Below are positions 13,534-35,061 of a DNA stretch of 64,000 nucleotides, piece after piece (within the stretch, counting starts at the first letter, position 1; each line of letters opens with the position of its first letter). This DNA is from Actinotalea sp. Marseille-Q4924 (GTDB lineage: Bacteria; Actinomycetota; Actinomycetes; Actinomycetales; Cellulomonadaceae). The stretch is taken from contig NZ_CAKAKB010000006.1 in assembly GCF_916618755.1 (NCBI RefSeq), positions 248,001-312,000 on the forward strand. The letters are read 5' to 3'. The notes under the pieces were generated by a model. That model made no database searches. It was not told where the DNA came from and saw only the letters and a list, made by a program, of their open reading frames with translations. The translations under genes and the position numbers were made by a program.

Positions 13534-13980
13534 GTGCCCCATGACCCTGCAGCGACAGCACCGGTGCCCCACTCCCCCGCGGTCTCCGCTCGCATGTCCC
13601 GTCAGGCCCGCCGTGACACGGCTCCGGAGGTCCTGCTCCGGCACGACCTGCATCGGCGTGGCCTCCGCTTCCGCGTCGACCACCCCCTCCCCGGGCTCCC
13701 CCGTCGCCGTGCCGACGTCCTGTTCCCGCGCGCCCGCATCGCCGTGTTCATCGACGGGTGCTTCTGGCACGCATGCCCGGATCACGGCACCCAGCCCGTC
13801 AGCAACGCCGCATGGTGGTCGGCGAAGCTCGAGCGGAACGTCGCGAGGGACCGGTCCACCGATGCTCACCTGGCAGCCATCGGCTGGACGGTCCTGCGCA
13901 TCTGGGAGCACGAGGACCCGTCGATGGCGGCAGACCGCGTGATGGTGGCATGGGAGCGGACAAGAACCGAGGGAAGCTGA
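13534..13980 (+). CDS. vsr: Very short patch repair endonuclease (Vsr)
   Basis: A 148-residue Vsr homologue. The family signatures are all seen: MSRQARRDTAPEVLLR, HPLPGLPRRRADVLFPRARIAVFIDGCFWHACPDHG, WWSAKLERNVARD, and WTVLRIWEHED. Vsr nicks next to the mismatched T in T:G pairs arising from deaminated 5-methylcytosine, and usually accompanies a C5 methyltransferase. It could serve as repair or, in MORC-type restriction systems, as a nuclease component. The GTG at 13534 lies about eleven bases after GGAGG; a GTG at 13522 and an ATG at 13594 are alternatives. It precedes the large plus-strand operon by 71 bases and may be its first gene. Confidence 0.9.
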   Translation: MPHDPAATAPVPHSPAVSARMSRQARRDTAPEVLLRHDLHRRGLRFRVDHPLPGLPRRRADVLFPRARIAVFIDGCFWHACPDHGTQPVSNAAWWSAKLERNVARDRSTDAHLAAIGWTVLRIWEHEDPSMAADRVMVAWERTRTEGS

Positions 13981-14051: not shown

Positions 14052-15977
14052 GTGGCGTTGCGGTGGCAGTTCGAGCGGCAGAGCCCTGCTCATGCCAACT
14101 TCGGCAACGCCAACCAGTGGACCGTCGGCGCCGGCCTGACGTCCCTCGCTCGGGAGACCGCGCAGAACTCCAATGACGCAGCCCTACCCGGAGGCGCAGT
14201 CGAGATCGTCTACACCCTGATCCGCCTCACCGGCGGCGACCGGCGCGCCTTCGAGAACGCGCTGGGCTGGGAGACGGGCCTCAAGCCCCACCTCGACGCC
14301 ATGCGTGCCGCGTCCCGCGGCGCCGTTTCGGCGAACCAGCTGATCGACGGCATGGAGTCCCTCCGCCACGCCGAGTCACTCGTCCTCCTGCGCGTCGCCG
14401 ACTACGGCTGCCGCGGGCTGGGTGGGCCGGAGTTCGCCGACGGCGATCCGGACGACTTCCGCGACTTCGTCAAGCTGTGTCGCCTGGACCTCTTCAGCGG
14501 GAAGGACGCAGCGGCCGGCGGCTCCTTCGGACTCGGCAAGGCGGTCTACTGGCGGTTCTCGCGGCTCCAGACGGCCCTCTTCGGGTCGAGGACCGCCGAC
14601 GACAACGGCCGCGGACGCACCCGGCTCTTCGGCGTGCAGCAGGGCGTCTCCCACCACCGCGACGGCGTCCCGTACCAGGGCAGGGGCCACTTCGGGGTCG
14701 TGCCGGACGGCGAGGACCTGGTCCGGTCGCACTGGGCCGACGACGAGCTCGTCGCCGCGCTGCACCTGACCCGCGAGGACGACCGCCCGGGGACGTCGGC
14801 CCTGATCGTCGGCTTCTTCGACCCCGAGGACCCGACGTCGGCGCTCGACGGTCGACGCGACCTGACCCGACTCGCGACGGAGCTCCGCCAGGGCATCGCG
14901 GAGAGTTTCTGGCCGGCGCTGGCGCGGGGTCGGATGAGCGTCCGGATCGACGTCGTCGACGACGGCGTGCTCGTGCAGCAGGACCGGGTCGACGCCGAGG
15001 AGACCTTCACCGAGCTGGTGGGCGCCCTCCGCGCCTACGACGAAGGGCGCGCGCAGGAGACGCTCGAGGAGGTCGGCGACGTCGTCGTCCGCGACGTCCC
15101 GATCCGTGTCCCGCGTCGCCGGAGGCCCGACCATCCCGCGTTCGAGCACACGGCCAAGCTCGTCGTCACCCTGTCGGACGACGTCAAGGACAGCCTGGAG
15201 AACCAGGTGTGCCTGTTCCGCCGTCCCGAGATGGTCGTCGAGACGCTCACCCCGCCGCCGGTCGAGGGCGCGATGTTCCACGCCTTCCTCCTGGCCGGTG
15301 GAGCGAAGGACCCGGAATCGCCGACCGCCGAGGACCTCCGCGCCGACGACTTCCTGCGCCATGCCGAGCCCCCGCCGCACGACCGCTGGATCCCCCGGAG
15401 CGGCCGCAAGCAGGTCAGCCAGGTCAACCTCAACGGCGTCTACGTGGCGCCGTGGCGCCGGAACCTCACGGACATCGAGCTCGACGTCGCCCGCGCACTG
15501 CAGGACCTCTTCGGACCGCCGCCACCGCCACCGGACACCGCTCCCCTGTCCGTCCTTAAGCATCTGCGGTTCCTCCGCGGACAGCCCGGGGAGGGCGGTG
15601 GTCGCGGACCCGCCGCGCCGCGGAAGCCCACCGTCGCGATGGACTCCGGCTGGGTGGAGGAGGGGCGGTGGGTTGTCGACTTCACCGTCAGGGCGCAGAA
15701 CCGGGACGAGGGCTGGTCCGTCGTGCCCGAGCTCGCGCTGGTCGGCCTGGACGGGTCCCGCCGTCACGTGACGTGGGACGGACCACTGGAGGTCCTGTCG
15801 CGGGAGGGCGGGGCGGCCGATGGCCGCGTCTTCCTCCCGGCCAAGGCCAACGCGCGGGTGGTGAGAATCCTGGTGCGGGGGGTCAGCACGGCAGAGCTGC
15901 CGATCCCTGCGGAGGAGTCCGCTGTCGAGGTCGTGCTGGGTGCCCTCGGGCCCGCACCGGTGGGACGGGACGCATGA
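14052..15977 (+). CDS. GHKL (Bergerat-fold) ATPase, paraMORC-like
   Basis: A 641-residue protein with the three GHKL motifs near the N-terminus: N-box RETAQNSNDA (about 34-43), G1 ADYGCRGLGG (116-125), and G2 GGSFGLGK (156-163). The order and spacing fit MORC/Hsp90/MutL-type ATPases that clamp DNA or protein on ATP binding. The rest of the protein (a beta-rich middle and a Pro-rich patch near residue 490) is unassigned. AGGGGA precedes the GTG by about eight bases. The stop overlaps the next ATG (ATGA), so translation is probably coupled with the unknown protein and the DUF6339-like protein that follow. It is unlike the second GHKL ATPase at 24091 beyond the fold motifs. Confidence 0.75.
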   Translation: MALRWQFERQSPAHANFGNANQWTVGAGLTSLARETAQNSNDAALPGGAVEIVYTLIRLTGGDRRAFENALGWETGLKPHLDAMRAASRGAVSANQLIDGMESLRHAESLVLLRVADYGCRGLGGPEFADGDPDDFRDFVKLCRLDLFSGKDAAAGGSFGLGKAVYWRFSRLQTALFGSRTADDNGRGRTRLFGVQQGVSHHRDGVPYQGRGHFGVVPDGEDLVRSHWADDELVAALHLTREDDRPGTSALIVGFFDPEDPTSALDGRRDLTRLATELRQGIAESFWPALARGRMSVRIDVVDDGVLVQQDRVDAEETFTELVGALRAYDEGRAQETLEEVGDVVVRDVPIRVPRRRRPDHPAFEHTAKLVVTLSDDVKDSLENQVCLFRRPEMVVETLTPPPVEGAMFHAFLLAGGAKDPESPTAEDLRADDFLRHAEPPPHDRWIPRSGRKQVSQVNLNGVYVAPWRRNLTDIELDVARALQDLFGPPPPPPDTAPLSVLKHLRFLRGQPGEGGGRGPAAPRKPTVAMDSGWVEEGRWVVDFTVRAQNRDEGWSVVPELALVGLDGSRRHVTWDGPLEVLSREGGAADGRVFLPAKANARVVRILVRGVSTAELPIPAEESAVEVVLGALGPAPVGRDA

Positions 15978-16921
15978 TCCCGCTCTACCCGTGGCCGACC
16001 TTCCGCGAACCGTGGCAGCTGGATCTCCGCGAGCCGACGTTCGACGGGGTCGCCCGCAGCGACGTGCTGATGCCGGATCATCGCCGGCTGCGTTCTGACC
16101 TGGTGGCCGACTGGGCGATCTGCGCCCTCGAGGCCGTGGCCACCGCTCCGTCCGCGGGTGGTGCTCCCCGTCCCGACGCCGCTCACCTCCTCGTCTCCGC
16201 GCCCCGCGCCCAGACCCGCCTGCCTCTCCCGCTCTCCCCGGACGGTGCTGGCTCCTGGCGCGCGCGCGTCGAGCTGCCGCAGGACCTGCTCGCAGGCATC
16301 GCGACCGTCACCGCCGAGCTGACGGCGGTCCTCGACGGTCGCGTACGGTTCCTCGGACGGTCCGAACCCTGGTCGGTCGTGGTGGACCCGAGTGACGCAC
16401 CGGTCCCGGTCGGAGCACCACCCTTCCCGATGGTGTGGGTCGACTTCGGTGACCCAGGAGCGCCGGAGCTCGCCAGGCGCTCTCCGGGCGCGCCGGCGGT
16501 CATGGACCTCTCGGGCTCACCGACGCTCTACCTCAACGACGCCATGCCGGGGCTCCACCGGCTCCTCCACGCCGACACCGCGCGGGGCGAGCGCCGGCGG
16601 GCTCGCGACCTCATGGGGGCGGAGGTCGCCCGGATCACGCTGACCGCGCTGGTGCGGGCAGCCGCCGCGGACCTCGAGGCGGACGACGACGGCGTCGTGA
16701 CACCCGCGGATCAGCTCCTGCGTCAGACCCTCGAGGGCGTCGCGGGAGTGATGCGATCGACCAGTGGGATCGACGAGCTGTGCCGCCGGATCGTCGAGGC
16801 CGACACCGGCCCGGCCATTGCCCGCGCGAACCTCTGGAGCGAGATCGACGGTGCCGTCGCGCGCCTGGCCGGGCTACCCGACTTCCAGGCCTCGCTGAGC
16901 GAGGAGGCCCGCAATGCCTGA
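15974..16921 (+). CDS. Unrecognised protein of the GHKL-DUF6339 triad
   Basis: A 315-residue soluble protein with no family I recognise. It starts MIPLYPWPTF and has a basic, Ala/Arg-rich helical C-terminal half (from about 190: TARGERRRARDLMGAEVARITLTAL). A conserved-looking centre reads FPMVWVDFGDP and LYLNDAMPGLHRLL. No nuclease, P-loop or zinc motif is visible, and no signal peptide. The gene overlaps the GHKL ATPase upstream by four bases and the DUF6339-like gene downstream by eight, which suggests that its product works in a complex with them at roughly equal amounts (inference). Confidence 0.7.
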   Translation: MIPLYPWPTFREPWQLDLREPTFDGVARSDVLMPDHRRLRSDLVADWAICALEAVATAPSAGGAPRPDAAHLLVSAPRAQTRLPLPLSPDGAGSWRARVELPQDLLAGIATVTAELTAVLDGRVRFLGRSEPWSVVVDPSDAPVPVGAPPFPMVWVDFGDPGAPELARRSPGAPAVMDLSGSPTLYLNDAMPGLHRLLHADTARGERRRARDLMGAEVARITLTALVRAAAADLEADDDGVVTPADQLLRQTLEGVAGVMRSTSGIDELCRRIVEADTGPAIARANLWSEIDGAVARLAGLPDFQASLSEEARNA

Positions 16922-17885
16922 CGTGCTCCATACCTTCACGGCGCCGGTCGATGCGCAGGACCGGGCTCGGATCGTCGAGGACCCGGCCTGGCTCCCGGCC
17001 GGCGCGGGGCCGGTCACCCACCGCGACGGGTCGCCCGTCCCGCTCGCCGCTTTCGCGGACCTCATGGCGAACTGGGCGGACCATCGTGACGCCGGTCGGT
17101 GGTCCGCCGATCGCGCCGAGAGCGACCGCTGGCTCGCCCCCAGGGTGCACTGGGCGCTACGGCTCACCCGGGCCCAGGCCGGGGACCGCCAGGTGTGGCT
17201 CTGGCTCGCGCTGCAGTGCGCGGACTACGTCCGATGGCGGTGGGACGGCGACAAGGGCGTGACCGAGGACCGCTGGACCGGGGCCGTCAACAAGCAGGCG
17301 ATCGCCCGCCTGTGGTGGGGCGGCGAGCTCTTCCGCGACGGCTCGGACTACCGGCCCGTCGTCCGCGCCTTCGTCCGGCAGGACCTGCCCAACTCCTACC
17401 TGCACCGGCCGTTCCTCCGCTGCCGGCCGCTCGCCCTGGCACTCCTCGAGGTCGCCGCACCCGAGGGGCGGGAGGAGGAGGTGTCCGCCGACGACGTCAA
17501 CGACCTCGCTCGCGTCGTCAATCTCGCGACCGCCGGCGCGCCGCCCGAGGCCGAGGTCGGCTACGCGGCCGACGACGTCGCGGGCTACGTGAGGTGGGTG
17601 CGCCAGACACCCCAGCAACCGTTCGGCTGGGACGTGCTCCCGGACGGCCCGTCGTGCGTCGACACCACCGCCGAGGCCATGACGGCCGCAAACGGCATCG
17701 CCCGACGCTGCGCCGGCTACGCCCGCACGACCGCCGAGGCACGCTGTACCCGCTCTTCGCTGCGTCGGCGGTCTTCCGCTGCCGACAGCACGGACCTCGT
17801 GGAAGACCGTGTGGGTGCCTCGCCCTACGCTGCCCCGGAGCACGAATCCACAGGCCCGCTCAGGCCGGAAGGAATCCCCAGGTGA
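16914..17885 (+). CDS. DUF6339-like protein
   Basis: A 323-residue soluble protein. The central part (WLAPRVHWALRLTRAQAGDRQVW, YVRWRWDG, then AIARLWWGGELFRDGSDY) fits the DUF6339 family, which has no known activity. The match is from memory of the pattern, not a search. The last 60 residues (from about ARTTAEARC) are Arg/Ser-rich and look unlike the rest, so the 3' end may have been altered next to the lower-GC methyltransferase gene. The stop overlaps the GTG of that gene (GTGA). As third member of the GHKL-unknown-DUF6339 run it probably acts with those two. Confidence 0.65.
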   Translation: MPDVLHTFTAPVDAQDRARIVEDPAWLPAGAGPVTHRDGSPVPLAAFADLMANWADHRDAGRWSADRAESDRWLAPRVHWALRLTRAQAGDRQVWLWLALQCADYVRWRWDGDKGVTEDRWTGAVNKQAIARLWWGGELFRDGSDYRPVVRAFVRQDLPNSYLHRPFLRCRPLALALLEVAAPEGREEEVSADDVNDLARVVNLATAGAPPEAEVGYAADDVAGYVRWVRQTPQQPFGWDVLPDGPSCVDTTAEAMTAANGIARRCAGYARTTAEARCTRSSLRRRSSAADSTDLVEDRVGASPYAAPEHESTGPLRPEGIPR

Positions 17886-18478
17886 CGCGTCGCAAGCTGA
17901 TCGAGGTCTCCCTGCCCCTGGAGGACATCAATCGTGCGCTCAAGGCGGAAAAGGCTAGAAAAGTCGGCAAGCCGCAACATATTCATCACTGGTGGGCTCG
18001 CCGCCCAATCACGGCTGCGCGCGCCGTTCTCTTCGCCCAGCTGGTTGACGATCCATCCTCGAATCCGGATAGATTTCCAACGGAAGCCTCAGTCCGCCGA
18101 GAGCGTGCGCGCCTGCATGACCTGATAAGGCGACTCATTCAGTGGGATGCGGTCAACGACCGAGCACTGATGCGCGAGGCGCACGCTGAGATCGTGGCGT
18201 CGATGGGCACCGCTCCTACCGTCCTCGACCCCTTCACCGGTGGCGGCGCAATCCCGATCGAAGCGCAACGCCTTGGCCTTGGTGTCGAAGCGAGCGATCT
18301 CAATCCCGTTGCGGCCATTCTCACGCGCGCACTGGTAGAGATCCCTCCAAGGTTCGCCGGCAACCCTCCGGTCTCCCCTAGCAGTGCTGGTCGGGACCTG
18401 AACACGTGGCCTGGTGCAACCGGCCTCGCGGAAGACGTCCGGAGATACGGCGAACTGCTGCGCGAGCGGGCCAAAGTA

Positions 18479-18481
18479 TGA
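18479..18481 (+). other. In-frame TGA inside the methyltransferase
   Basis: The reading frame is the same before and after this TGA: RERAKV, stop, then LREHYPNATLPDGSSAEVI continuing into the zinc-ribbon region. A CGA to TGA transition would create it. No frame change is needed to restore the protein here. Confidence 0.8.
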
Positions 18482-19300
18482 CTGCGCGAACACTATCCAA
18501 ACGCGACTCTCCCCGACGGCAGCAGCGCCGAAGTGATCGCTTGGCTATGGGCCCGGACGGTCAAGTGCCCGAATCCCGCGTGTCGCATGGAAGCTCCACT
18601 CGTTCAATCATGGCTACTCAGCAGTAAGCCCGGGAAGCAAGTTCGGATCCTTCCAAAGGTCGTTCCCGCTGCCACGGGAGCGGGACGGGCTATCGAGTAC
18701 ACGATTTGCCATAACCAGCAGGCGACCGCTCCGGGGACCGTTAGCGGTTCGGGCGCTCGCTGCCTGGCCTGTGACTCCTCTATCGAACTGAAGTACATTC
18801 GCAGCGAGGGCCGCGCTGATCGAATTGGCAGCCGGCTGATCGCGGTTGTGGCGCAAGGCAAGAGAGGTCGGGAGTATCTACCTCCAACTCAAGAGCACGA
18901 GCGAGCGGCCAGGGTGCAGAAGAAGAATAGCGGAGTCCCGGGAAATCTTCCAGAGGCGGCGCTAGGATTTCGCGTACAGGCCTACGGCATGACTTCGTGG
19001 AGTCACCTCTTTACCGATAGACAGCTCATCGCCTTGACAACAATTTGCGATATTGCGTCCGATCTTCACACCGAAATCTTGATGGACGGCATCTCGGCCG
19101 GACTCAGCGAGGAGGGTTCCCTTGTGAGCGGCGGTACGGGCGCGAGGGCTTACGCGGACGCCGTTCTCACATACCTTGGTTTGGCGATTTCCAGGCTGAC
19201 CGACTGGTCGAACTCCCTCTGTCGTTGGGAGAGTAAGGGACAGGTTTCTCAGCAGCTCTTCGGACAGCAATCGATTCCGATGGTATGGGACTATTCTGAG

Positions 19301-19308
19301 GCGATGTG
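19301..19308 (+). other. Single-base frameshift in the methyltransferase
   Basis: The upstream frame reads PMVWDYSEA and then turns into nonsense; the downstream frame reads VLAASSGSLDAALKYV. Restoring one A (GCGATGTG to GCGAATGTG) gives SEANVLAASSGS, as expected for the family. The total gene length is also one base short of a multiple of three. Confidence 0.75.
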
Positions 19309-20677
19309 CTGGCCGCGAGCAGCGGATCCCTGGATGCCGCGTTGAAGTACGTGATCAAGCCGTTGACGATGTCGTGGGCAGTTGGCGAAGCGACGGTGGT
19401 GCAGGCGGACGCGCGCACGCGCGATTACTCCGGCTTCGTAGTTTCGACGGACCCTCCCTACTACAGCAATATTGGGTACGCGGATCTCTCGGACTTCTTC
19501 TATGTTTGGTTGCGACGGGTACTCCGCGATGCACATCCAGACCTGTTCGGCACGGTCCTGACCCCCAAGCTTGAGGAACTCATTGCAAGTCCCCAGAGAC
19601 ACGGCGGCTCGGCTTCCGCCGAGCGGCACTTCGAAGATGGCTTCAGGCAGGTTTTTACCGCCATGCGACTAAGCGCGGGGAACGACACGCCAATCACCGT
19701 GTATTACGCCTTCAAGCAGCAAGAACGCAAAGCGAGCGATATCCTCTCGACCGGCTGGGCAACCATCCTTGAGGCGATGCTTGCAGCGGGGTGGCGGATC
19801 ACTGCGACCTGGCCCCTGCTTACCGAATTGGACAAACGCCTGGTCGCCTCAGGCGCCAACGCCCTTGCTTCATCGATCGTCCTCGTCCTTCGGCCTCGGA
19901 ATGCTGACGAGCCGGTGATCTCTCGACGCGACTTTATTCGTGCACTCAGGGCAGAGCTTCCAGCGGCGCTCACGGAACTCCAGCAAGGTGCGATCGCTCC
20001 CGTTGACCTCGCGCAGGCGACGATCGGCCCCGGCATGGCCGTGTACTCTCGATACTCACGTGTCATCGAGTCCGACGGCTCGAGCCTGTCGGTTAAGTCC
20101 GCGCTCTCGCTCGTCAACCAGGCACTCGATGAACTGTTGGCAGAGCAGGACGGGGATCTAGATGCGGACAGTCGGTTCTGCCTGCGCTGGTACAAGCAGT
20201 TCGGCTGGAAGCGCGGGGACTACGGGATCGCCGAGAGCATGGGTAACGCCCTCAATATTCCCGTCAAGCGACTTGAGCACGGCGGCGTGCTAACCGCACG
20301 TGAAGGCTCGGTCCGCCTCCTTCGCCCGTCGGAGCTGCCGCGTAAATGGGACCCGGCGAAGGATGACCGAATCTCAGTTTGGGAGGTCACGTGCCACCTG
20401 GCACGTGCCGTCACAACTGAGGGCACCGAAGCTGCAGCCCGCCTCATGGCGAAAGCCAACACGCGGGTCAACCTGGAAGCCGTTCAGTTGCTCGCATACC
20501 GGCTCTATGAGCTCGCTCAGCACAAGGATCCGGAAGACGCAGGTCTCTTCAATGCGCTGGCGTCCGAGTGGGCGCCGCTCTCAGCTGCCGCTCAGCGCGT
20601 AGACACCCGCGGGATGCAGGGCGGCCTGGACCTGGACGCACTGTGACCGATCGACCGACTACAAGGAGCAGCGGACC

Positions 20678-23600
20678 ATGGCGCTGAGCAACAAGGAACA
20701 CGTGGCGAAGGGGCTCGATCTCCTCGCCGAGGTTCTGGAGCCGTTCGTCGCTCGGGTCCTCGCACGCCACGTGCCCACGGGCCACGACTGGACCGTGCTG
20801 CTGCAGCTCCGCGACGAGGCCCGGAACCGTGCGATGGAGCGCTACAACCGGCACGATCTGCACCTGCAGCTGCGTGCGATCAACGAGCGCCACGGCGACA
20901 TCGGCTACCCCTTCAGCGCCGACCTCTCCCGCGCGGAGCGCAACCTCGCCGGCGAGCTGGCGGACGTGCGCAACCGGGTGGCCCACAACGAGTCCTTCAG
21001 CACGGACGACGCGTACCGGTCGCTCGACACGGTGGAACGCCTCATGCGCGCGATCGGCGCAGCGCCGCAGGCGGACGAGGTGCGTCGGCGACGCCTCGAC
21101 GTGCAGCGCGGCGCCTACGAGAGCGAGACCCGCCGCGCCGCCGCCCGCGCCACCGCCCCGGACACCGCGGATGCCGAGCTGCCGTCGTGGCGCGAGGTGC
21201 TGCCACCGCATCCTGATGTCCAGAACGGCACGTTCGCCGCCTCCGAGTTCGCGGCCGACCTCTACCGCGTCGCCATGGACCCCGCGGCGACCGCCGACGA
21301 GTACGCCGAACCGGTCGAGTTCTTCCGTCGCACCTACCTCACCGAAGGCCTCAAGGACCTCCTCCGCCGCTCGGCCGCACGCGTGGCCGGCGATCCCAGC
21401 GCCCAGCCGGTCATCAACCTCCAGACCACATTCGGCGGCGGCAAGACGCACTCGATGCTTGCCGTCTGGCACCTGCTCTCCGGCCGGCTGCTCACCGCCT
21501 TCCCACAGGAGGTGCAGGACCTCCTCCACGACGTCCCGCTGCCCGACGGTGAGGTCCGCCGCGTCGCGCTCGTCGGCAACGAGATCGCGCCCGGCCAGCC
21601 GGTCACCAAGCCGGACGGCACCGTGGTCCGCACGCTGTGGGGAGAGCTCGCGTGGCAGCTCGGCGGTGCGGACGGCTACGCCGTCGTCGCCGAATCGGAC
21701 AGGAACGCGACGAACCCCGGGGCCGCGCTGCGTGACCTGCTGGCTGCGCACGCCCCCGCCGTCGTCCTCATCGACGAGTGGGTCTCCTACGCCCGTCAGC
21801 TCCACGCACGGACGGATCTCCCGGCCGGGGACTTCGAGACCCAGTTCACCTTCGCGCAGGCCCTCACGCAGGCTGTCGCCGCCGTCCCCGGGATGCTCCT
21901 GCTCGTCTCCGTTCCCGCGAGCGACGCCCGGCGGCCGGCCGCCGACGGGTCGGAGGACGAGCAGACGCACGTCTCGGACCTCGAGGTCGGCGGGCAGCAC
22001 GGCCGGGAGGCGCTCCAGCGGCTGGAGAACGTGGTGCGTCGGGTCGCCCACCAGTGGGCGCACGCCTCCGGCGACGAGTCCTACGAGATCGTGCGCCGTC
22101 GGCTCTTCAGCGAGCCCGACAACGCCGCGCAGGCGGTCATCAACGCGACCGCTCGGCGCTTCGGCGACCACTACCGGCAGCACGCCACCGAGTTCCCCTC
22201 CGGCGTCACCGAGCGCGACTACGAGAACCGGATCAAGGTCGCCTACCCGATCCACCCGGAACTGCTCGACCGGCTCTACAGCGACTGGTCCACGCTCGAA
22301 CGCTTCCAGCGCACTCGCGGCGTCCTGCGCCTCATGAGCACGGTCGTCCATCAGCTCTGGGAGCGCGGTGACCCGTCGCCGCTCATCCTGCCGGGCTCGG
22401 TCCCGCTCGACTCGTCCGGGGTGCGCAGCGAGGTGGTGCAGTACGTCGACGCCGGGTGGGCCGAGATCGTCCAGGCCGACATCGACGGTGCCAACGCCGT
22501 CTCCCGGCGCGTTGACGCCGAGCGCCCCCTGCTCGGCAAGCGGGCCCTCACCCTCCGCGTCGCCCGCACGGTGTTCCTCGACTCCGCACCGACGCTCGAG
22601 ACCGCTCGCAAGGGCGTCGACCGCAAGCGCATCGCCCTGGGCGTGACCATGCCCGGCGACGTCGTCGGCAACCTCGGCTCCGCGCTCGACGGACTCGTCA
22701 ACGGTTCCAGCCACATGTTCCACGACGGCGACCGCTACTGGTACGACACCCAGCCGTCGCTCAACCGCATGGCCGCAGAACGCGCGAGGAACGTCCACGA
22801 GCACCAGGTGCACGACGAGGTCATCGCCCGCCTTCGACGGGGCGCCGGCGGAGCGACCCCCGAGTTCAGCGGCGTCGTCGTCGCGCCGCAGACCACGGGG
22901 GACGTCCCCGAGGAGGAGTCGACACGTCTGGTCCTGCTGCGCCCTGAGCACCGGCACAACGGCAAGGACAAGGAGAGCAGCGCCGCTCGTTTCGTCCTCG
23001 ACCTGCTCCAGCACCGGGGCACCGCACCGCGGATCCGCCCGAACAGCATCGTCGCGCTCGCCGCGGACGAGGGCCGCTGGAAGGACCTCGAGTCCACGGT
23101 CCGCAGCCACCTCGCGTGGCGCTCGATCATGGACGACACCGTCCGGCTCGACCTCACCCAGCAGAACGCCGAACAGGCCCGCAAGCGCACCGAGGACAGC
23201 AGCCGCACGATCGACGACCAGATCGCCAACGCGTGGATCTGGGCCCTCCACGGTGTCCAGACAGACCCTCGGCAGCCGCTCACCGTCGGCCAGGTCAAGT
23301 GCGACGGCTCAGAGAAGCGGCTTGCCGTCCGAGCCGGCGCGCGCCTCGTCCGCGAGGACGCCCTCCGAACACAACTCGCGCCGGCCGCGCTGCACGTCGA
23401 CCTCACCGGGCACCTGCTCGCGAAGTGGAACCGTGGGCACGTCTCCGTCGGCGAGCTGTGGGACTACTGCACGCGCTACCCGTACATGCCGCGACTGCGG
23501 GACAAGCGTGTGCTCACCGAGACCCTGCGGGACGTCCTACACGACGCGGCCTGGGTGCAGACCGGGTTCGCCCTCGCCACCGGCTACGGCGAGAGCAGCG

Positions 23601-24091: not shown

Positions 24092-25632
24092 TGGTGCAAC
24101 GCCCGAACGTGGTGGAGGTCCGACGGGTCGACCCGGACCCTTCGATCACGTCCGCGATCGGGCGGCACCACTCCCTCCAGACGGCCGTCGCCGACCTGGT
24201 CGACAACAGCATCGACGCCGGCGCACGGAACGTCCTCATCCGGGTGCTGCAGCGCGACGAGCGCGCGGTCGGCCTCCTGCTCGTCGACGACGGCCAGGGC
24301 ATGGACACCGAGGCCGTCGACCACGCCATGGGGTACGCACGGCGCCGCGAGTACGGCGAGGAGGACCTGGGCCACTTCGGCATCGGCCTCAAGGCGGCGT
24401 CCCTCAGCCAGGCGGACACGCTCCTGGTCTGGTCACGCCGGTGGGGCGCTCCGGCCGTGGGCCGGCTGCTCGAACGGGAGTCCCTGGACACCGGACCACT
24501 CGTGAAATCCATCGCCACCGAGGACGCCGTCGAGCGGTTGGCCGCCGTGGACGCAGGCTTCTCGCTGGAGACCGGCACCGTCGTGGAGTGGCGTGACGTG
24601 CGCGGCTTCCTGCAGTCGCCCGACCCTGAGGAGCAGCGGGCCTGGCTCGAGTCGGCGATCGAGCGACTGCGCACCCACCTCGGCCTGACCTTGCACCGGA
24701 TCCTCGCGCGCCGGCAGGTGACCGTCCGGATCGACGTCCTCGACGAGCACTGGCCGGACCTCGGGACCGTGGCCCGGACCGTCGAGCCTCTCGACCCGTT
24801 CGGGTACTCCCGGAGCGGCGCCGCGAGTTTCCCTCAGCCGCTGACACTCGTCCTCCCCGACGGCATCGTCGAGACCGAGCTGCACGTCTGGCCACACGAC
24901 CCCACCCACCCGTCCTGGCTCCTCGGCGGCCGGACGCCCGTGGAGTCCCAGGGGCTCTACGTGTACCGGCGGGACCGGCTGCTGCAGGCCGGCGGGTGGA
25001 ACGGCCTGACGAACCCCAGCCGTGACCTGGTGCACGCCCGCGTCGCCGTCGAGTACGGCGCGGCCCTCGCCGGACACGTGCAGATCAACCCGGAGAAGAC
25101 GGGCGTCACGCTCGACGCCGTGTTCACCGAGGCGTGGGCGTCGGGTCGGCTCGACGACGGCGCGACGTTCGCCGACTACCTCGAGGTCGTGCGCACCGGT
25201 GCCCGGACCTCGCGAAAGCGCAACCCCCGCCCGGTCGAGGTCCCCGAACCCGGGAAGGGCTTCACGGCGGGGGTGGTCGAGGCGATCGAGGACAACGCCA
25301 CTTATCCCGAGGGCGCCGAGCCGGTGAGCATCCGGTGGAAGGGCCTGCCCGACGACCAGGTCGTCCGTGTCGACCGCGAGAACCGCACCCTGTGGGTCAA
25401 CCAGAGGTACCGGGCCGCGCTCGGGGGGACGACCGGCCTGCGCAACGACGACGGCCAGGTCGTCAAGGTCCTCCTCCACCTGCTGCTCGCACCGCACGCT
25501 GCCGGCGCGATCGCCGGGGCGCGGGAGAAGCGTTTGGAGACGGCCTGGAACGCCATGCTCCTCGCCGCCGTGCAGGAGGACGACGCGCGACGACCTCGTT
25601 CTGACGACGGACCGCACGGAGGACAGCGATGA
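24091..25632 (+). CDS. MORC/MutL-like GHKL ATPase
   Basis: A 513-residue ATPase with clear MutL/MORC-type motifs: N-box AVADLVDNSIDAGA (33-46), G1 LLVDDGQGMD (63-72), and G2 GHFGIGLKAASLSQ (94-107). A transducer-like segment follows (LHVWPHDPTHP, then QGLYVYRRDRLLQAGGW) that ends in a lysine-bearing INPEKTGV. Prokaryotic members with neighbours like these (Z1, DUF4420, Dcm, Vsr) are known as restriction-associated relatives of eukaryotic MORC proteins. It probably acts as an ATP-driven DNA clamp that licenses the nuclease. The ATG overlaps the DUF499 stop, and the stop overlaps the DUF4420 start (ATGA). Confidence 0.9.
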   Translation: MVQRPNVVEVRRVDPDPSITSAIGRHHSLQTAVADLVDNSIDAGARNVLIRVLQRDERAVGLLLVDDGQGMDTEAVDHAMGYARRREYGEEDLGHFGIGLKAASLSQADTLLVWSRRWGAPAVGRLLERESLDTGPLVKSIATEDAVERLAAVDAGFSLETGTVVEWRDVRGFLQSPDPEEQRAWLESAIERLRTHLGLTLHRILARRQVTVRIDVLDEHWPDLGTVARTVEPLDPFGYSRSGAASFPQPLTLVLPDGIVETELHVWPHDPTHPSWLLGGRTPVESQGLYVYRRDRLLQAGGWNGLTNPSRDLVHARVAVEYGAALAGHVQINPEKTGVTLDAVFTEAWASGRLDDGATFADYLEVVRTGARTSRKRNPRPVEVPEPGKGFTAGVVEAIEDNATYPEGAEPVSIRWKGLPDDQVVRVDRENRTLWVNQRYRAALGGTTGLRNDDGQVVKVLLHLLLAPHAAGAIAGAREKRLETAWNAMLLAAVQEDDARRPRSDDGPHGGQR

Positions 25633-26618
25633 CGGACCAAGACACGACGGTCGCTCGGCTCTCGCCGGACTCCCTCGACCAGTACTTCTCGGCGGGAATC
25701 CCCTCGACGCACGTGCTCGCCAGTGCGCCGCGCTGCGATCTCATCATCGACCCGGGGGCGCAGACATACGAGCTCCTCACACCCGTCGTCGGAGCGGAGC
25801 CGGATCTTCTGGGCATGAAGCGGGTGGCCGTCGACCAGGTGTCGATGGAGGACGGACCCTGGTTCCGGCTGCGTCTCGACTGCCGGGAGATGCGCCACGA
25901 GACGTACGGGGTCGTCGTCTCGGTCGTCCAGGCGATGCGAGGCGGGGCGTCCTTCGCGGCGGCCGCTGAGGCTGCTGTGGGCAACCTCCGCACGCTGCTG
26001 GAGTCCCGCCGCCGGTTGACGCACGACAAGGAGATCGGGCTCATCGGTGAGCTCCTGGTGCTGCGCTCGCTGCTGCGCTCCTTCGACGAGGCCGATGTCG
26101 TCGAGTGGTGGTTGGGCCCCCTCGCGGAGCAGCACGACCTCGCCACGCCGGATTACGACGTCGAGGTGAAGACCACGACCTCCGAACGCCGCACCCACGT
26201 CATCCACGGCACCGGGCAGCTCGAGCCGAATCCCGGCAGGCCGCTCTGGCTCCTGTCCATCCAGCTGACCCGGGCAGGCGGCGCAGACGGGCTGAGCCTT
26301 CCCGCCCTGATTCACGAGGTCCGTGGACTCCTGCCGGCGCACAGCGGCCGATTCCTGGAGAACCTCGTCACCCAGGGCTGGCGCGACGACGACGCCGAGC
26401 TCTACCGCGCCCGGTACATCCCCCGTTCGACTCCTGCCGCCTACCTCGTCGACGACGACTTCCCCGCGATCACGACGGCGCGGGTCTCCCGCGCCGTCCC
26501 ACACCACGAGCTCGTCAGCGACGTCTCCTACCGGGTGGACGTCACGAACCGGGACTCCGGCATGCCCGGCGGGCCACTGGACCACTTCCTGAACGACGAG
26601 GACGCCAACGATGACTGA
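25629..26618 (+). CDS. PD-(D/E)XK family protein (DUF4420)
   Basis: A 329-residue protein of the DUF4420 group of putative restriction nucleases. The catalytic-type core is TPDYDVEVKTTTSERRTHV (around residue 175), with D, then E-x-K, preceded by the helix KEIGLIGELLVLRSLL, which supplies the acidic first motif (GEL). It would be the DNA-cutting subunit of the GHKL/Z1 set; cleavage itself is inferred. Start and stop overlap both neighbours (4 and 8 bases), so it is made together with the MORC-like ATPase and the Z1 helicase. Confidence 0.85.
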   Translation: MTDQDTTVARLSPDSLDQYFSAGIPSTHVLASAPRCDLIIDPGAQTYELLTPVVGAEPDLLGMKRVAVDQVSMEDGPWFRLRLDCREMRHETYGVVVSVVQAMRGGASFAAAAEAAVGNLRTLLESRRRLTHDKEIGLIGELLVLRSLLRSFDEADVVEWWLGPLAEQHDLATPDYDVEVKTTTSERRTHVIHGTGQLEPNPGRPLWLLSIQLTRAGGADGLSLPALIHEVRGLLPAHSGRFLENLVTQGWRDDDAELYRARYIPRSTPAAYLVDDDFPAITTARVSRAVPHHELVSDVSYRVDVTNRDSGMPGGPLDHFLNDEDANDD

Positions 26619-29610
26619 CCCGCTCGGTGCAGCCGTGATCCGCGCGCTGGACGGCCTGCAGGGGTACGAGCCCGAACCGTTGCTGGAGCTGGCGAACTTC
26701 CACCTACGGCGCTCCGAGGAGTCCCTCACCGAGGACGAACTCGTCGAGATGGTCACGACTTCGAACCTCGACGATCCCGTACGCATCCGCTTCCACATCC
26801 AGCTGTCGCGTTGGGACGGTGTCGACGACGAGCCGTGGGCACACACACCGGACGGTGCGCTCACCCAGGCAGGGTCGCCGGCCCGGCGTGCCCATGTCAT
26901 CGGGCTCCTCGGCCTCGGCAACGACTCCGCCGCCAGGATCGGCGAGGCATTCCCCGTCCACGGTCTGGACACCGTCGTCATCGCCGAGGAGCCGGCCGAC
27001 TGGACACCCTGGTACACCGACGACCGAGCCAACGAGCGGACCTTCTACTGGGACGCCTACAAGGGCGTGCTCGCGCAGAAGATGGACGCCTACGCCGTCG
27101 ACCGTCTGGACCACGCCACGCGTGAGGTGGTGCGGCGGCTCGCCGATCCGTCGCGGCCACAGCCGTACCAGTCGAAGGGGCTGGTCGTCGGGCACGTGCA
27201 GAGCGGCAAGACCGCCAACTTCACCGGCGTGATCGCCAAGGCCGTGGACGCCGGTTACCGCCTGGTGATCGTGCTCACCGGCACGATCGAGATCCTGCGC
27301 GCCCAGACCCAGCGGCGGTTGGACATGGAGCTGGTCGGCGTCGAGAACATCCTCGGCGGCATCGACCCGGCGAGCACGGACCTGCTCGCCGAGGTCGACT
27401 ACGCGGGCGACGGCGACCGGGACTGGGTGGACGGCAGATTCGTGAAGCACGGCGTCCGTCCCCGCGACGTCGGCGCGCCGGAGATCCGCCGGCTCACTCG
27501 ACTGAAGTGGGACTACCGCGCGCTCAAGCAGGGGATCGCCACACTCGACTTCCGCGTCGGCAACGAGCTGGCCGACGCGACGAAGCCGCTCTACGACCCC
27601 GTGAACCTGCACGGCACCGACGTCCGCGTCGCCGTCGTGAAGAAGAACAAGAAGGCGCTCGAGGATCTGGTCAAGGACCTGTCGCGGATCCACGCCCGCG
27701 CGGGCGAGATCCCCACCCTGATCATCGACGACGAGGCTGACCAGGCGTCCGTCAACACCCTGCGGGACAAACGTGCCTCGAAGGAGGAGGCCCGGGAGCG
27801 GACACGGATCAACAGCCTCATCGCGGAACTGCTCGGGCAGCTGAAGCGGGCGCAGTACGTGGGCTACACGGCCACTCCGTTCGCCAACGTCTTCATCGAC
27901 CCGGACGACTCCGAGGACCTCTTCCCCAAGGACTTCATCGTCAGCCTCGAGCCGCCGGCGGCCTACATGGGCGGCCGTGACTTCCACGACCTGCACCTGG
28001 CTCCGGAGGACGCGAGGACCGTGAAGAACTCGAACGAGCTGGCGTTCGTGCGGGACCTCACCGCCGATCCCGACGACGACGCGACGCGCGATGCCGAGCT
28101 GCTCCGGGCGATCGACTCCTACGTGCTGGCCGGTGCGGTGAAGCTCTGGCGGGACGACGTCGAGGGGAAGTCGCGGTTCAGGCACCACACGATGCTCGTC
28201 CACGAGGCGGTCGAGCAGAAGAAGCACGAGGAACTGGCTCGCTCCGTAGCGGCGACGTGGCGCCGCGCCGGGTACAGCCAGTCCCATGGTCTGCGCCGGC
28301 TCCACGACCTCTGGCGGGACGACGTCCTGCCGGTCAGCGAGGCTCGAGCCGACGGTCTGCCGGTTCCGCGCGACTTCAAGGAGCTCTCGCCATGGATCGG
28401 CCCGGCCGTGGACAGGATCTCGAGCGGCTCGTCGGCCATCGCGGTCGTCAACGGGAACAAGGAGTCCGACTACGCCCAGCCGGACCTGAACTTCGACACT
28501 CGTGACGTCTGGAAGATCCTGGTCGGCGGCGCCAAGCTGAGTCGCGGCTTCACGGTCGAAGGACTCACGGTGTCCTACTACACCCGGCGGACCACCGCGG
28601 CGGACACCCTCATGCAGATGGGCCGGTGGTTCGGCTACCGCGCCGGGTACAAGGACCTCGTGCGCCTCTATCTCGGCAGGTCCGTGCCCGCCCCGCGGGG
28701 AACGACGGTGGACCTCTACCGCACGTTCGAGGCGATCATCCGTGATGAGGAGGACTTCCGCCGGGAGCTGCGGGCGTTCCAGGGCCGGGACGCTCAGGGG
28801 AACCCGCTGCTGCGGCCACGTGACGTGCCGCCCATGGTCTTCCAGTCGGTGCCCTGGCTGAAGCCCACCGGGACGAACCGGATGTACAACGCCGTCCTCA
28901 GCTTCCAGGGTGAGGGCGGCCAGGTGCGGGACTTCTTCCAGCAGCCGCCGAGAGACGCGAAGGTGAACGAGGACCACTTCGCGGCGGTGGGCCCGTTGCT
29001 CGCTGCGGCCCAGGAGACGGGGTCGTTCGCCAACGACTCACGCAACCTCTACGCGGCCCGGTACGGGATCGTGGGCGCCGAGGCCCTCCTGAGCGTGATC
29101 CAGCAGTTCCGGTGGCAGAACGACGACGTCATCCAACCGACACTGACGTTCTACAGGAAGGCCATGGCCGAGGGGACGCTCCAGGACTGGGTCGTCATCG
29201 TCCCTCTCCTCGAGGGAGCCGCGGTCGCGAAACGGCACGTCGTGGATCACCAGGACACGTTCCATGTGCTCAAGCGCGAGCGCCGTCCGGAGCGCAACTG
29301 GGCCTTCTCGGGAAGCTCTCCCAGACAACGACCCTCCATGCGGATCGTCTCGGGCGGTCAGCCGCCCAGCGACGGCGATCCGATCGCCTCCGGGCTGCAC
29401 CGTGATCACCGTGGAGCGTTCCTCCTGACCTTCGCCGCTGACATCGGTGCGGGCAGAGGGCCGAAGGATCTCCGCGACCCGGCTCCGGCAGGCGACATCG
29501 CAACGCTCTTCTCCCTCGCCTTCCCGCGCTCAGCGGCTCCGTCGCCCCGGGTCGGCTTCTCGGTTCGCCGGCAGGGAGGAGGGCCGATCGTCCCCGTCAC
29601 GGGGACCTGA
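26611..29610 (+). CDS. Z1-domain superfamily II helicase
   Basis: A 999-residue Z1-type helicase. The Walker A motif is VGHVQSGKTANFTG (193-206), motif II is IIDDEADQAS, motif III/Z1 is GYTATPFANVF, and the C-terminal Z1 signatures are GGAKLSRGFTVEGLTVSYY and TLMQMGRWFGYR. The family occurs beside MutL/MORC-like ATPases, Dcm and PD-(D/E)XK proteins in restriction loci and is presumed to translocate on DNA. The ATG at 26611 overlaps the end of the DUF4420 gene. After its stop there are 112 bases before the next gene, the largest gap in the operon, which could hold an internal promoter; none is obvious. Confidence 0.9.
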   Translation: MTDPLGAAVIRALDGLQGYEPEPLLELANFHLRRSEESLTEDELVEMVTTSNLDDPVRIRFHIQLSRWDGVDDEPWAHTPDGALTQAGSPARRAHVIGLLGLGNDSAARIGEAFPVHGLDTVVIAEEPADWTPWYTDDRANERTFYWDAYKGVLAQKMDAYAVDRLDHATREVVRRLADPSRPQPYQSKGLVVGHVQSGKTANFTGVIAKAVDAGYRLVIVLTGTIEILRAQTQRRLDMELVGVENILGGIDPASTDLLAEVDYAGDGDRDWVDGRFVKHGVRPRDVGAPEIRRLTRLKWDYRALKQGIATLDFRVGNELADATKPLYDPVNLHGTDVRVAVVKKNKKALEDLVKDLSRIHARAGEIPTLIIDDEADQASVNTLRDKRASKEEARERTRINSLIAELLGQLKRAQYVGYTATPFANVFIDPDDSEDLFPKDFIVSLEPPAAYMGGRDFHDLHLAPEDARTVKNSNELAFVRDLTADPDDDATRDAELLRAIDSYVLAGAVKLWRDDVEGKSRFRHHTMLVHEAVEQKKHEELARSVAATWRRAGYSQSHGLRRLHDLWRDDVLPVSEARADGLPVPRDFKELSPWIGPAVDRISSGSSAIAVVNGNKESDYAQPDLNFDTRDVWKILVGGAKLSRGFTVEGLTVSYYTRRTTAADTLMQMGRWFGYRAGYKDLVRLYLGRSVPAPRGTTVDLYRTFEAIIRDEEDFRRELRAFQGRDAQGNPLLRPRDVPPMVFQSVPWLKPTGTNRMYNAVLSFQGEGGQVRDFFQQPPRDAKVNEDHFAAVGPLLAAAQETGSFANDSRNLYAARYGIVGAEALLSVIQQFRWQNDDVIQPTLTFYRKAMAEGTLQDWVVIVPLLEGAAVAKRHVVDHQDTFHVLKRERRPERNWAFSGSSPRQRPSMRIVSGGQPPSDGDPIASGLHRDHRGAFLLTFAADIGAGRGPKDLRDPAPAGDIATLFSLAFPRSAAPSPRVGFSVRRQGGGPIVPVTGT

Positions 29611-29722
29611 CCGCATCCATACTCGATCGGCGGTCGCCGCGAACCTCGGGACGACGCAGACTGGACACACAGGGGCAGGGCACCGATCGACCCGGCCCGG
29701 ACAAGGACGTCCCGGACACACG

Positions 29723-32700
29723 GTGAGCTCACTTCCGTTCGACACCGACGATCTGACCGACACGTTCGGCTACTTCCCGTTGCACTCGGCGGCCGCCGAA
29801 CTGCTGCAGACAGCGGTGTTCGACCGACTTCTCGTGATCGCGCGGTCCGTTCCGGATGTCGTCCACCTCGTCGACGAGGCACGGCTCTTGCTACCCGACT
29901 CATGCCCACTGCCGGACGGCGCCTACTGGTTCGCCGGCGGGCTCGACCCCACGCTCGCCGTAGTCGTCGATGCAGGGACGCCTGAGGCTCAGACCCAGTC
30001 CGCCGCGCCGAGCTCGCTCCCTGACGACCACCCTCTGGTCGCCGCCCTCTCCTGGGGCGAACACCTGTGGGAACAGGCGTACCCGATCGCGCCGCCGCGG
30101 TATGCGGTGAACGAGGCGCTCCTGACCGTCCCTGCGGGGCGTGACGCCATCGTCCAGCGGCGGCGTTTCACCGAAGGCACGTGGCTGTACGACGTGCGTA
30201 CGGACGGTCGCATGAGTCAGGTGCTGGAGTCCGGCCTGGCTCCGATCGCGGCCGTCGACGACCCCACCGTGTGGGTCACCGAGGAACCCGCTTCCGTGAA
30301 CAGATTCGGTGCGACCCTCACACGAGCCAAGCTCAGGGGCACGTTCGCCAACACCCTGTTCTCGTTCCGTGCCACCAGGACGTCCTTCCGGCCGTACCAG
30401 TTCAAACCCGTCCTCAAGCTGCTGCAGACCGGGAAGGCCCGCCTCCTCGTCGCCGACGAGGTCGGCCTCGGCAAGACCATCGAGGCGGGGCTCATCTGGA
30501 CGGAGCTCGAGGCGCGGCGCGAGGCCGACCGTGTCCTGGTCGTGTGCCCGTCGTCCCTCCTCGGCAAGTGGAAGGAGGAGATGGACGAGCGGTTCGGCTT
30601 CGAGCTGACGGAACTCGATACCGCCGGCCTCCGCACACTGCTCGAGAAGCACCAGACCGGCCGCACACCCGCCCGCGGCGCCTACATCTGCTCGCTCGAG
30701 AGGCTGCGCAAGTGGGACGGGCTCGAGGACTTCGCGCAGTCGCCGCCGGCGTTCGACCTCGTCATCGTCGACGAGGCGCACTCCATGCGGAACGCCGACA
30801 CCCGCAGCCACGCACTGGGCGAGCAGCTCACCGACTGGGCGGACGCACTGGTGTTCCTCACTGCGACGCCGATCAACCTCCGCCAGGAGGACCTGCTGCA
30901 CCTCCTCGAGCTGCTGGTCCCGGAGGACTTCGGCGATCTCGCCGATCTCGAGCGACGGCTCGAACCCAACGCCGTCCTGAACCGGCTCAGCGAGGCCATC
31001 TCCCGGCCGTCGTCGACGGTCGCAGAGCGGGTAGCACTGCTCGACCGGCTTCCGACCAGTGACTTCGGGCGGACCCTGGCTCTCCGTCCTGACGTCCCGG
31101 TCCTACGAGAGGTGATCTCGCGGACCCCCTTCCTCGCGGCCGACGTCGTGGAGGCCCGCAGGCTGCTCGCCGACCTCAACACGCTCTCCGCGGTCATCAC
31201 CCGAACCCGCAAGGCGGAAGTCGACGACCGCAAGACACTTCGGGAACCAGACCTCACGAAGGTCGTATGGACCCCTGACGAGGAGCGCTTCTACGAGGAG
31301 TACGTCCGCTGGTGTCACGCTCGGGCGGATGCCGTGGGCATGCCGGTGTACTTCGCGATGCAGATGCCGTTGCGCCTGGCGAGTGCGTGCTTGCCCATGG
31401 CTCGCCGCGCTGTGTTGGAGCCCAGCGGCGCGCTGATGCAGGACGAGGACGATCCCGCGGCTCAGCACCAGACGGCCGTCGTGGCTCCCCACCGTGAACT
31501 GCTCGAAGCAGCGGCCGCCCTCGACCCCGATGTCGACAGCAAGTTCGACCGGCTGGCCCCGGTCCTTGACCGCCTCATCAGCCACCAACGCAAGCGTGTT
31601 CTGCTCTTCACCTTCTCCCGGCCCACTCTCTCCTACCTGCGTGGCCGCCTGGGTGACCGGTTCCGGACCGAGGTCATGCACGGCGGGGTCGCGCGCGAGG
31701 AGCGGCGCCAGATCCTCAAGCGATTCCGTGCCGGAGAGATCGACCTCGTCCTCGCCAACCGTGTCGCCAGCGAGGGCCTGGACTTCGAGTTCTGCTCCGC
31801 CGTCGTCAACTACGACCTCCCGTGGAACCCGATGGAGATCGAGCAACGCATCGGCCGCATCGATCGCATCGGGCAGCAGGAGGAGAAGGTCCTCGTCGCG
31901 AACTTCTACAACGAGGCGACGATCGACGAGCGGATCCTCGTCCGCGTCCTCGACCGGATCGAGATCTTCAAGCGCTCCATCGGGGAGATCGAACCGATCA
32001 TCAATCAGCAGGTGAAGGCACTGCAGGCAGCCTTCGACTTCACTCTCACTCCGGAACAGCGGGAGATGAAGGTCCGGCAGTTCGAGAGGGCGGTCGAGAC
32101 GCAGCGCGCCGGCATCCGTGAGCTCACCGACGCCTCCAGTGCGTTGCTGGTCAGCAACGACGTGGAGATCGCCGGCCTCGAGGACGACCTCATCCGGACA
32201 GGCCGGTACGTCGGACAGCGGGAACTGGCCCTCCTTCTGGACGACTGGGGTCGCACCGACGGCGCTCCGCCGGTGACGATCCACTCGGACGGCAGGTCCA
32301 TGGTGCTCCGAGGCAACACCGCCATGGCGGGGCGAGTCGAACAGCTGGGGCGCGACAGACGCCGCGCTCGGGCGGAGATCTCCGTCTACGCGTCGCAGCT
32401 GCGCGACGAGGCCGAGATCCATCTCGTCCTCGACCAGGAGTTCGCCCGCACCGGCGGCGGTGACCTCCTGACCGCCACGCACCCTCTGGTTCTGGCGGCG
32501 ACCGACGTCCCGGGCCATCGGCATGCCCGCTACTCGCAGATCCGGGTCGCCGGCCAGGAGGGGACGTCTCCCGGCTGGTACGTCGTCGTCCTGGCGCAGG
32601 CACGCGGAGCGACGATCGGTGGAGGCGACGAGATGTGGGCCACCGCGGTCGATCTTCAAGGCCGTGAGGTGAGCGACCGGGTAGCGGACCTCGTGCTCGC

Positions 32701-33085
32701 GGGTCTGGCTGCTGGGACCCTCAGCACTCCGGACGGCGCGGTCCCCACGACGGACCTGTCGCGTCCTGCACGGTGCGCGACCGACCTGCTCGCCGGCAGG
32801 CAGGTCCGGACACAGCGTCGTCAGGACGCAGAATCAGCGGCGCTCCGCGACGCGCGTCGCCTCACGATCACGGCCCAGTACGACCGGAGGATGGATGCGA
32901 TCCGCCGGAGGCGGGAGACGGCCCGTGCGCGCGGGCGCGGGCCCGCGACCGAACGACTGTTCGGCGGCCAGGCGAGACGCGCCGTGCAGCGACGTGACCA
33001 ACTGCTCGCAGAGCTCGACGACAAGGAACGAGCGGCCATCGAGCTCGAGATGCTCGCCGTCTGCGCCTTGGAGGTGACGCCGTGA
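29723..33085 (+). CDS. SNF2/RapA-like helicase (DrmD-like)
   Basis: An 1120-residue SNF2-family ATPase: motif I LLVADEVGLGKTIEAGLIW (241-259), motif II DEAH (350-353), motif III TATP (380-383), and motif VI QRIGRIDRIGQ in the second half. The first 200 residues are unassigned, and the C-terminal 300 include a coiled, Arg-rich stretch. The domain plan resembles the SNF2 helicase of class 1 DISARM (DrmD), but the rest of DISARM is absent. The frame is open well upstream into the Z1 gene; the GTG at 29723 starts the first sensible sequence (MSSLPFDTDDL). The stop overlaps the next start (GTGA). It is likely the DNA-translocating motor for the DUF1156/DUF499 part. Confidence 0.85.
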   Translation: MSSLPFDTDDLTDTFGYFPLHSAAAELLQTAVFDRLLVIARSVPDVVHLVDEARLLLPDSCPLPDGAYWFAGGLDPTLAVVVDAGTPEAQTQSAAPSSLPDDHPLVAALSWGEHLWEQAYPIAPPRYAVNEALLTVPAGRDAIVQRRRFTEGTWLYDVRTDGRMSQVLESGLAPIAAVDDPTVWVTEEPASVNRFGATLTRAKLRGTFANTLFSFRATRTSFRPYQFKPVLKLLQTGKARLLVADEVGLGKTIEAGLIWTELEARREADRVLVVCPSSLLGKWKEEMDERFGFELTELDTAGLRTLLEKHQTGRTPARGAYICSLERLRKWDGLEDFAQSPPAFDLVIVDEAHSMRNADTRSHALGEQLTDWADALVFLTATPINLRQEDLLHLLELLVPEDFGDLADLERRLEPNAVLNRLSEAISRPSSTVAERVALLDRLPTSDFGRTLALRPDVPVLREVISRTPFLAADVVEARRLLADLNTLSAVITRTRKAEVDDRKTLREPDLTKVVWTPDEERFYEEYVRWCHARADAVGMPVYFAMQMPLRLASACLPMARRAVLEPSGALMQDEDDPAAQHQTAVVAPHRELLEAAAALDPDVDSKFDRLAPVLDRLISHQRKRVLLFTFSRPTLSYLRGRLGDRFRTEVMHGGVAREERRQILKRFRAGEIDLVLANRVASEGLDFEFCSAVVNYDLPWNPMEIEQRIGRIDRIGQQEEKVLVANFYNEATIDERILVRVLDRIEIFKRSIGEIEPIINQQVKALQAAFDFTLTPEQREMKVRQFERAVETQRAGIRELTDASSALLVSNDVEIAGLEDDLIRTGRYVGQRELALLLDDWGRTDGAPPVTIHSDGRSMVLRGNTAMAGRVEQLGRDRRRARAEISVYASQLRDEAEIHLVLDQEFARTGGGDLLTATHPLVLAATDVPGHRHARYSQIRVAGQEGTSPGWYVVVLAQARGATIGGGDEMWATAVDLQGREVSDRVADLVLAGLAAGTLSTPDGAVPTTDLSRPARCATDLLAGRQVRTQRRQDAESAALRDARRLTITAQYDRRMDAIRRRRETARARGRGPATERLFGGQARRAVQRRDQLLAELDDKERAAIELEMLAVCALEVTP

Positions 33086-35061
33086 AGTCGACCCCGGAAC
33101 GCCGGATCGACGCTGCTGACGAGCGGGCCGCCGAGAGCCGCTACCGCAAGGCACTGGAGCGGAAGCAGCATCCCGTCAAGTACCAGGGCCCGCGGAACAC
33201 GCAGTGGACCGGCACCGGTCGCCCGCACCTCGCGCCGCATGCACAAGGTGAGCTCGTCGGTCGCGTCGCTCTGCGTGGTGTCCATCCCCTGATCGATGCT
33301 GGTGACTTCTACATCGGCGAGCGGTACGTGGAGGAGGACGGACTCCACGTCTACAGCTGGGCAGCCCCCGTCGCGTGTGCCTTCTTCCGTGGCACGAATC
33401 ACCATGCGCTCTGCGAGTCGACGGTGGCTGTTCGGACCTTCCTTCGTCGGGACGGCGTCATCGCCCAGGTCGTCGAAGAGGCGCTGGTGGACGGGGTCAC
33501 CGATCCGTTCTCACGTCGCGAACTGTCCATCCCGGCAGCACCTCGCAAGGTGACCCTCCCCCGGCCCGCCCCTGATGCGCCGGTACAGCGCTCGAGCGAG
33601 GCGACCGCCTCGAAGACTCCTGCAGTCGGTCGCAACGTGCCGGCTCCAGTGAGTGAGGGGCAACCGACTGCACTACGTCGATCGCCCTCGCCGGCCAGGG
33701 CCCACCTCCGCGCCGAGTCGGCCTTGCGTGAGCGCCTGGCAGCCCCTCGGTCCAGCCGCCTCGAAGCGGTGCTGTCCACCCTGCAGCCGGATCAGTACGA
33801 CCTGGTGTCCCGACCGGGGAACGAGCCATTGCTCGTCCAGGGTCACCCAGGGACCGGCAAGACGATCATCGCGATCCACCGTGCAGCCTTCCTTGTCGAC
33901 ACCGAGCGGCGGGAGAACCGCGTCCGAAAGCTCCTCCTGGTCGGACCGACGCGCGAGTACGCCGACCACGTCAGCGGGCTCCTCGGCAGCCTCGTCACGG
34001 ACCCTCATTCGGTCGAGGTCACTTCCGTCGATGACCTGATCCAGCGCATCCGTGGCGTCAGCACAGAGCTGAGTGGACCCCTCTGCCGGGACTACCGCGA
34101 CGCAGATGTCCACCTCATGCTTCTGGCTCAGGACGCGCGGCGGCGGCTTCAGCGGCGCGGCGTGCTTCCGCCAGGCCGCCGAGAGGCTGCAGCCGCCGTC
34201 TACGAAGCGTTGCGGACGAACGGGGACACCCAAGGCGTGATCACGTCCGACCGCGAATGGTCGTCCTACCTCACCACTCAACTCCCGGCGTACGATCGGG
34301 CGCACGGTTACCGCGTCCTTCAAGGGCTGCTCGCTGCTTGCGCCTGGGCCTTGAGCCCACCGCCGGACCTGCGCGGGTTCGACCACGTGATCGTGGACGA
34401 GGCGCAGGATGTGCTGCCCTTGCAGTGGGCACTTCTCGACAACCTTCTCGAAGAGCCGAGTTGGACGGTCCTGGGCGATATGAACCAGCGACGGAACGAC
34501 TGGGCGTTCCACTCCTGGACACACATCGCAGACCATCTCGGTTGCCTGGACGAGGCTGGGAAGCCGCCGGTCGTGGTGGTCGAACGCGGCTACCGTTCGA
34601 CGGGACCCATCATGCGATTCGCGGGGCTGCTCCTCCCCCGTCATGAGCGGACCGTCGAGTCACTGCAGGCCGACGGTCCGGAACCGGTCGTCGTCCGCGT
34701 CGCCCAGACCGTCCTCCAAGAGGAGGTCGTGACGACTGCAACGAGCCTCCTGGGTCGTCACACCGCTGGAACGGTCGCCGTGATCACCGTGGACCCTCGT
34801 GGCGCCCGAGAGCGCTTCGCCCATCAGGGCTGGAAGTGCCGAGGGCAGCGCTGCGAACGCGGAGGGCAGGCGGTGCGCGTACTGCATCCTGAGTCGGCCC
34901 GAGGCCTCGAGTTCGACGCGGTCGTCGTCGTCGAACCCGCGGACTTCCCCATCAACCTTGGACGCAACGGCCTGCTCTACACGAGCCTGACCCGAGCGAA
35001 CAGGGAACTGGCAGTGGTCCACAGCAAGCGGCTTCCTGACGGCCTCGCCGGGCGGCGCTGA
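33082..35061 (+). CDS. UvrD-like (superfamily I) helicase/ATPase
   Basis: A 659-residue protein. Residues 1-150 form a small unassigned domain (from RVALRGVHPLIDAGDFYIGERYVE); residues 160-225 are a low-complexity linker. Then comes the SF1 core: Walker A GHPGTGKTIIA (254-264), VIVDEAQDVLPLQW (motif II), YRSTGPIMRFA, and the late motifs SARGLEFDAVVVVEPADFP and YTSLTRANRELAVVH. The core is short compared with full UvrD, so it may be an ATPase switch rather than a processive helicase. It is coupled to the SNF2 gene by a GTGA overlap and is the last gene of the operon. Confidence 0.85.
   Translation: MKSTPERRIDAADERAAESRYRKALERKQHPVKYQGPRNTQWTGTGRPHLAPHAQGELVGRVALRGVHPLIDAGDFYIGERYVEEDGLHVYSWAAPVACAFFRGTNHHALCESTVAVRTFLRRDGVIAQVVEEALVDGVTDPFSRRELSIPAAPRKVTLPRPAPDAPVQRSSEATASKTPAVGRNVPAPVSEGQPTALRRSPSPARAHLRAESALRERLAAPRSSRLEAVLSTLQPDQYDLVSRPGNEPLLVQGHPGTGKTIIAIHRAAFLVDTERRENRVRKLLLVGPTREYADHVSGLLGSLVTDPHSVEVTSVDDLIQRIRGVSTELSGPLCRDYRDADVHLMLLAQDARRRLQRRGVLPPGRREAAAAVYEALRTNGDTQGVITSDREWSSYLTTQLPAYDRAHGYRVLQGLLAACAWALSPPPDLRGFDHVIVDEAQDVLPLQWALLDNLLEEPSWTVLGDMNQRRNDWAFHSWTHIADHLGCLDEAGKPPVVVVERGYRSTGPIMRFAGLLLPRHERTVESLQADGPEPVVVRVAQTVLQEEVVTTATSLLGRHTAGTVAVITVDPRGARERFAHQGWKCRGQRCERGGQAVRVLHPESARGLEFDAVVVVEPADFPINLGRNGLLYTSLTRANRELAVVHSKRLPDGLAGRR

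Follow-up and report, generated by a model that had tools for sequence, protein, structure and literature searches.

A 64,000-nucleotide stretch of the Actinotalea sp. Marseille-Q4924 genome (contig NZ_CAKAKB010000006.1, positions 248,001 to 312,000; hereafter the window) carries, as a first-pass annotation had reported, ten consecutive plus-strand genes (14052..35061), which overlap at 7 of their 9 joints. Judged by its genes, this long actinobacterial operon is a predicted antivirus (defence) operon of interchangeable parts. Its core joins HmaB and HmaC of the Hma system to a MORC half of Mza-type genes, and the order HmaB, HmaC, then MORC half is identical in the window and four other loci of related bacteria. 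The pairing of DUF1156/DUF499 genes with MORC-half genes is not confined to this genome. The annotation's proposal of a composite of two defence sets is partly supported; the full ten-gene order was found in no related locus read.

The Hma-MORC core

HmaC (20678..24091, +) is an intact fusion of a HEPN domain (HEPN_Swt1, 2.3e-28; pattern RNRVAHN) and a DUF499 AAA+ ATPase (PADLOC HmaC, 3.4e-253), preceded by HmaB (17882..20646, +), a DUF1156 N6-adenine-type methyltransferase recognized by PADLOC in three pieces. The MORC half includes a MzaB-type GHKL (MutL/paraMORC-like) ATPase (24091..25632, +), supported by its patterns and by Pfam HATPase_c_3 (7.4e-22, on the longer open reading frame (ORF) 23863-25632), and the DUF4420/MzaD PD-(D/E)XK nuclease (25629..26618, +; Pfam 1.4e-35), with its active-site pattern present; a further gene (26611..29610, +) lies between the latter and the SNF2 gene. 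PADLOC matches in the window are to MzaB (5.5e-23), MzaC (5.1e-73) and MzaD (1.9e-12); MzaA and MzaE (AIPR) gave no match among the window genes scanned, some small ORFs lying outside the scan. The nuclease pattern is retained in all five hybrid loci, and its EVKTT stretch in 7 of 7 aligned sequences. Upstream of the G890 hybrid, near Dcm, a 1549-amino-acid ORF (L195, 9158-13807) with MzaB-like and MzaA-like regions appears to be two Mza parts fused.

The five MORC-linked HmaC proteins form one clade (support 100/100, tree of 18 rows). For the same five taxa, HmaC and the MORC half each reject the other's tree (approximately unbiased (AU) test, 3.8e-5 and 0.0058), indicating that the halves were re-paired and yet remained joined. 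Within the MORC half, AU tests on groups picked after the trees had been seen gave 8e-5 (seven rows) and 0.0058 (the five taxa common with HmaC) when the window and G300 were forced together, and 0.028 (seven rows) or 0.067 (nine rows) when G263 and G326 were added.

A proposed effector exchange and its alternatives

Hma is described, in the portions of the literature drawn on here, as a DUF499-centred BREX-related Type-1 system (Payne 2021, PMC8565338; PMC12839542). The window shares with it the HmaB and HmaC orthologues, the HEPN-DUF499 fusion and the order of the two genes; HmaA, however, is part of Hma, and the window and the G074, G471 and G890 stretches yielded no orthologue, no genome-wide search having been made; the covered part of the G300 locus likewise gave no match. 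A SNF2 match precedes HmaB in 61 of 76 HmaC loci; among the other 15, only L090, which is the hybrid, and two distant loci, L093 and L086, extend more than 1.7 kb upstream. A helicase-nuclease fusion is carried by 79% of taxa with published BR Type-1 systems, as far as the cited section goes, and the rest have other nucleases nearby (PMC12839542). The SNF2 protein of the window was considered as HmaA and ruled out, scoring 413.8 bits against DrmD and 170.2 against HmaA in PADLOC, while HmaA queries match a short core only.

For Hma/BR systems the division of labour proposed, in the part of the source used, has HmaC scanning, HmaB marking and HmaA cutting (PMC12839542). GHKL ATPases with a restriction endonuclease-fold nuclease and a distinct superfamily II helicase are presented, in the passage cited, as proposed restriction engines (PMC2292703). 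With roles taken from the families, HmaC would scan and HmaB would mark, while the MORC-half engines (GHKL ATPase, nuclease and helicase) would stand in place of HmaA. We favour such an effector swap, giving it an even chance, because the hybrid has HmaB, HmaC and a second engine set with no HmaA nearby, and because order is conserved while the halves were re-paired; protection against phages is a prediction from the families. Weighing against it, HmaBC is deleted in G263 and G326 with the MORC half retained. The same loss would fit two sets that are simply co-transcribed neighbours, a possible though less probable explanation, which has to account for the fixed order in five loci, the single HmaC clade, halves still adjacent after re-pairing, and a window HmaC that is full length and evolves at its sister's rate despite a dead HmaB.

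One defence system inside the operon of another has a parallel in Hma operons that enclose Septu or other systems, termed 'guilt by embedding' (Payne 2024 preprint, as cited in PMC12255303). In comparison with what that citation conveys, the present arrangement differs: HmaA was not found, several genomes have the MORC effector after HmaC, and an extra cassette lies just before HmaB.

The re-pairing of the halves shows that a restriction effector can join, and join anew, with a recognition/modification pair of another system, and the loci offer a natural series for studying the roles of the GHKL/MORC and DUF499 ATPases: intact hybrids (G074, G471, G890), HmaB dead (window), HmaBC deleted (G263, G326) and a TmtA-like neighbour (p2MP, G918). 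For catalogues, the re-pairing cautions against listing Hma, Mza and PDC-M33 as closed sets.

The HmaB pseudogene

The window HmaB, annotated at first pass as broken, is indeed a pseudogene, although it belongs to the DUF1156/HmaB family. It carries a stop at 18479-18481 and a frame change near 19304-19309, where queries from all four relatives switch frame; since what we take to be motif I precedes the stop and the presumed DPPY stretch follows the frame change, no single piece carries both. Its branch is three times that of its sister (0.74 vs 0.24), while HmaC branches are even (0.23 vs 0.27). This, with two separate lesions, makes sequencing error an unlikely cause. HmaB is intact in G074, G471 and G890.

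Decay of the whole locus, no longer working in this genome, would agree with these lesions, the long branch, an HmaB third-position GC content of 0.65-0.73 compared with about 0.90 in the neighbouring sequence (HmaB of the relatives is also low in the middle part, 0.73-0.76, less so elsewhere) and a Dcm that is fragmentary in G326. It is nevertheless unlikely: six other window genes (outside M33A-B-C, Dcm and Vsr) align to relatives in one uninterrupted frame, and all patterns sought were matched except the HmaC Walker A, whose search pattern gave no match in any of the five loci.

The middle part, HmaB2 (18482-19345), taken for the target recognition part, departs from the clade of the HmaB end part, and its tree does not group the MORC-linked loci; judging from these sequences, its history seems to be a separate one, and it may be exchanged independently.

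The flanking cassettes

Three genes before HmaB correspond to the PADLOC candidate system PDC-M33, whose arrangement was judged from related loci: M33A, a GHKL ATPase (14052..15977, +; PADLOC 5e-19; profile of six relatives 4e-55) with conserved stretches that we take to be GHKL-like motifs; M33B, an uncharacterized protein (15974..16921, +), positioned as in relatives; and M33C, DUF6339 (16914..17885, +; Pfam 1.4e-12; PADLOC 3e-5), 35% identical over 116 residues to a haloarchaeal neighbour gene. M33B similarity is marginal: by profile the gene ranks first among 232 window ORFs (E 0.21), and it is top-ranked for three of five single queries but not for the other two; a pairwise comparison gave E 0.022. 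A single weak 53-residue M33B match was seen in G316. The order matches the haloarchaeal plasmid locus L162, which has two M33A-B-C sets (4836-8576, 13021-18600), one beside Dcm and a HhH-GPD glycosylase, perhaps in the role of Vsr.

Vsr (13522..13980, +; PF03852, 5.7e-15 and 3.5e-15) is first in the operon direction and Dcm (12319..13455, -; Pfam DNA_methylase 3.9e-61; start uncertain, about 13431-13488) diverges beside it, in keeping with their annotated place at the head. M33A, DUF6339, the gene between them and a divergent Dcm resemble the Halomicrobium urmianum plasmid, but here the cassette lies between Vsr and the hybrid HmaB. A Dcm tree, built to place Dcm/Vsr with M33 or with the hybrid, had very long branches and did not discriminate between the two. 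Dcm and Vsr were not found at the G471 hybrid locus (L116), whose operon is headed by a protein resembling the HNH_2 zinc-ribbon protein that adjoins Dcm in the window (11361-12332), the two being 43% alike over 65 residues.

At the other end lie the DrmD-like SNF2 helicase (29723..33085, +; start set by homology; PADLOC DrmD 3.2e-124, HmaA 1.4e-50) and its partner, a UvrD-like superfamily 1 helicase (33082..35061, +; Pfam). Of seven further SNF2 loci read, four also have the pair (L174, L176-L177, L178 and L181, from four other genomes of the family). In G386 and G316 it comes after type I restriction genes, whereas in G460 it precedes a type III-like set; it is perhaps a portable add-on.

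One obligate ten-gene machine, as the annotation had suggested, would suit the overlapping joints but is very improbable, and we reject it: both M33A-B-C and SNF2-UvrD are found in loci that lack the hybrid core, and none of the related loci read combines all the parts.

Upstream, a GmrSD type IV restriction enzyme (5002-7215) and a NERD-UvrD protein (7502-9187) place the operon within a larger defence island.
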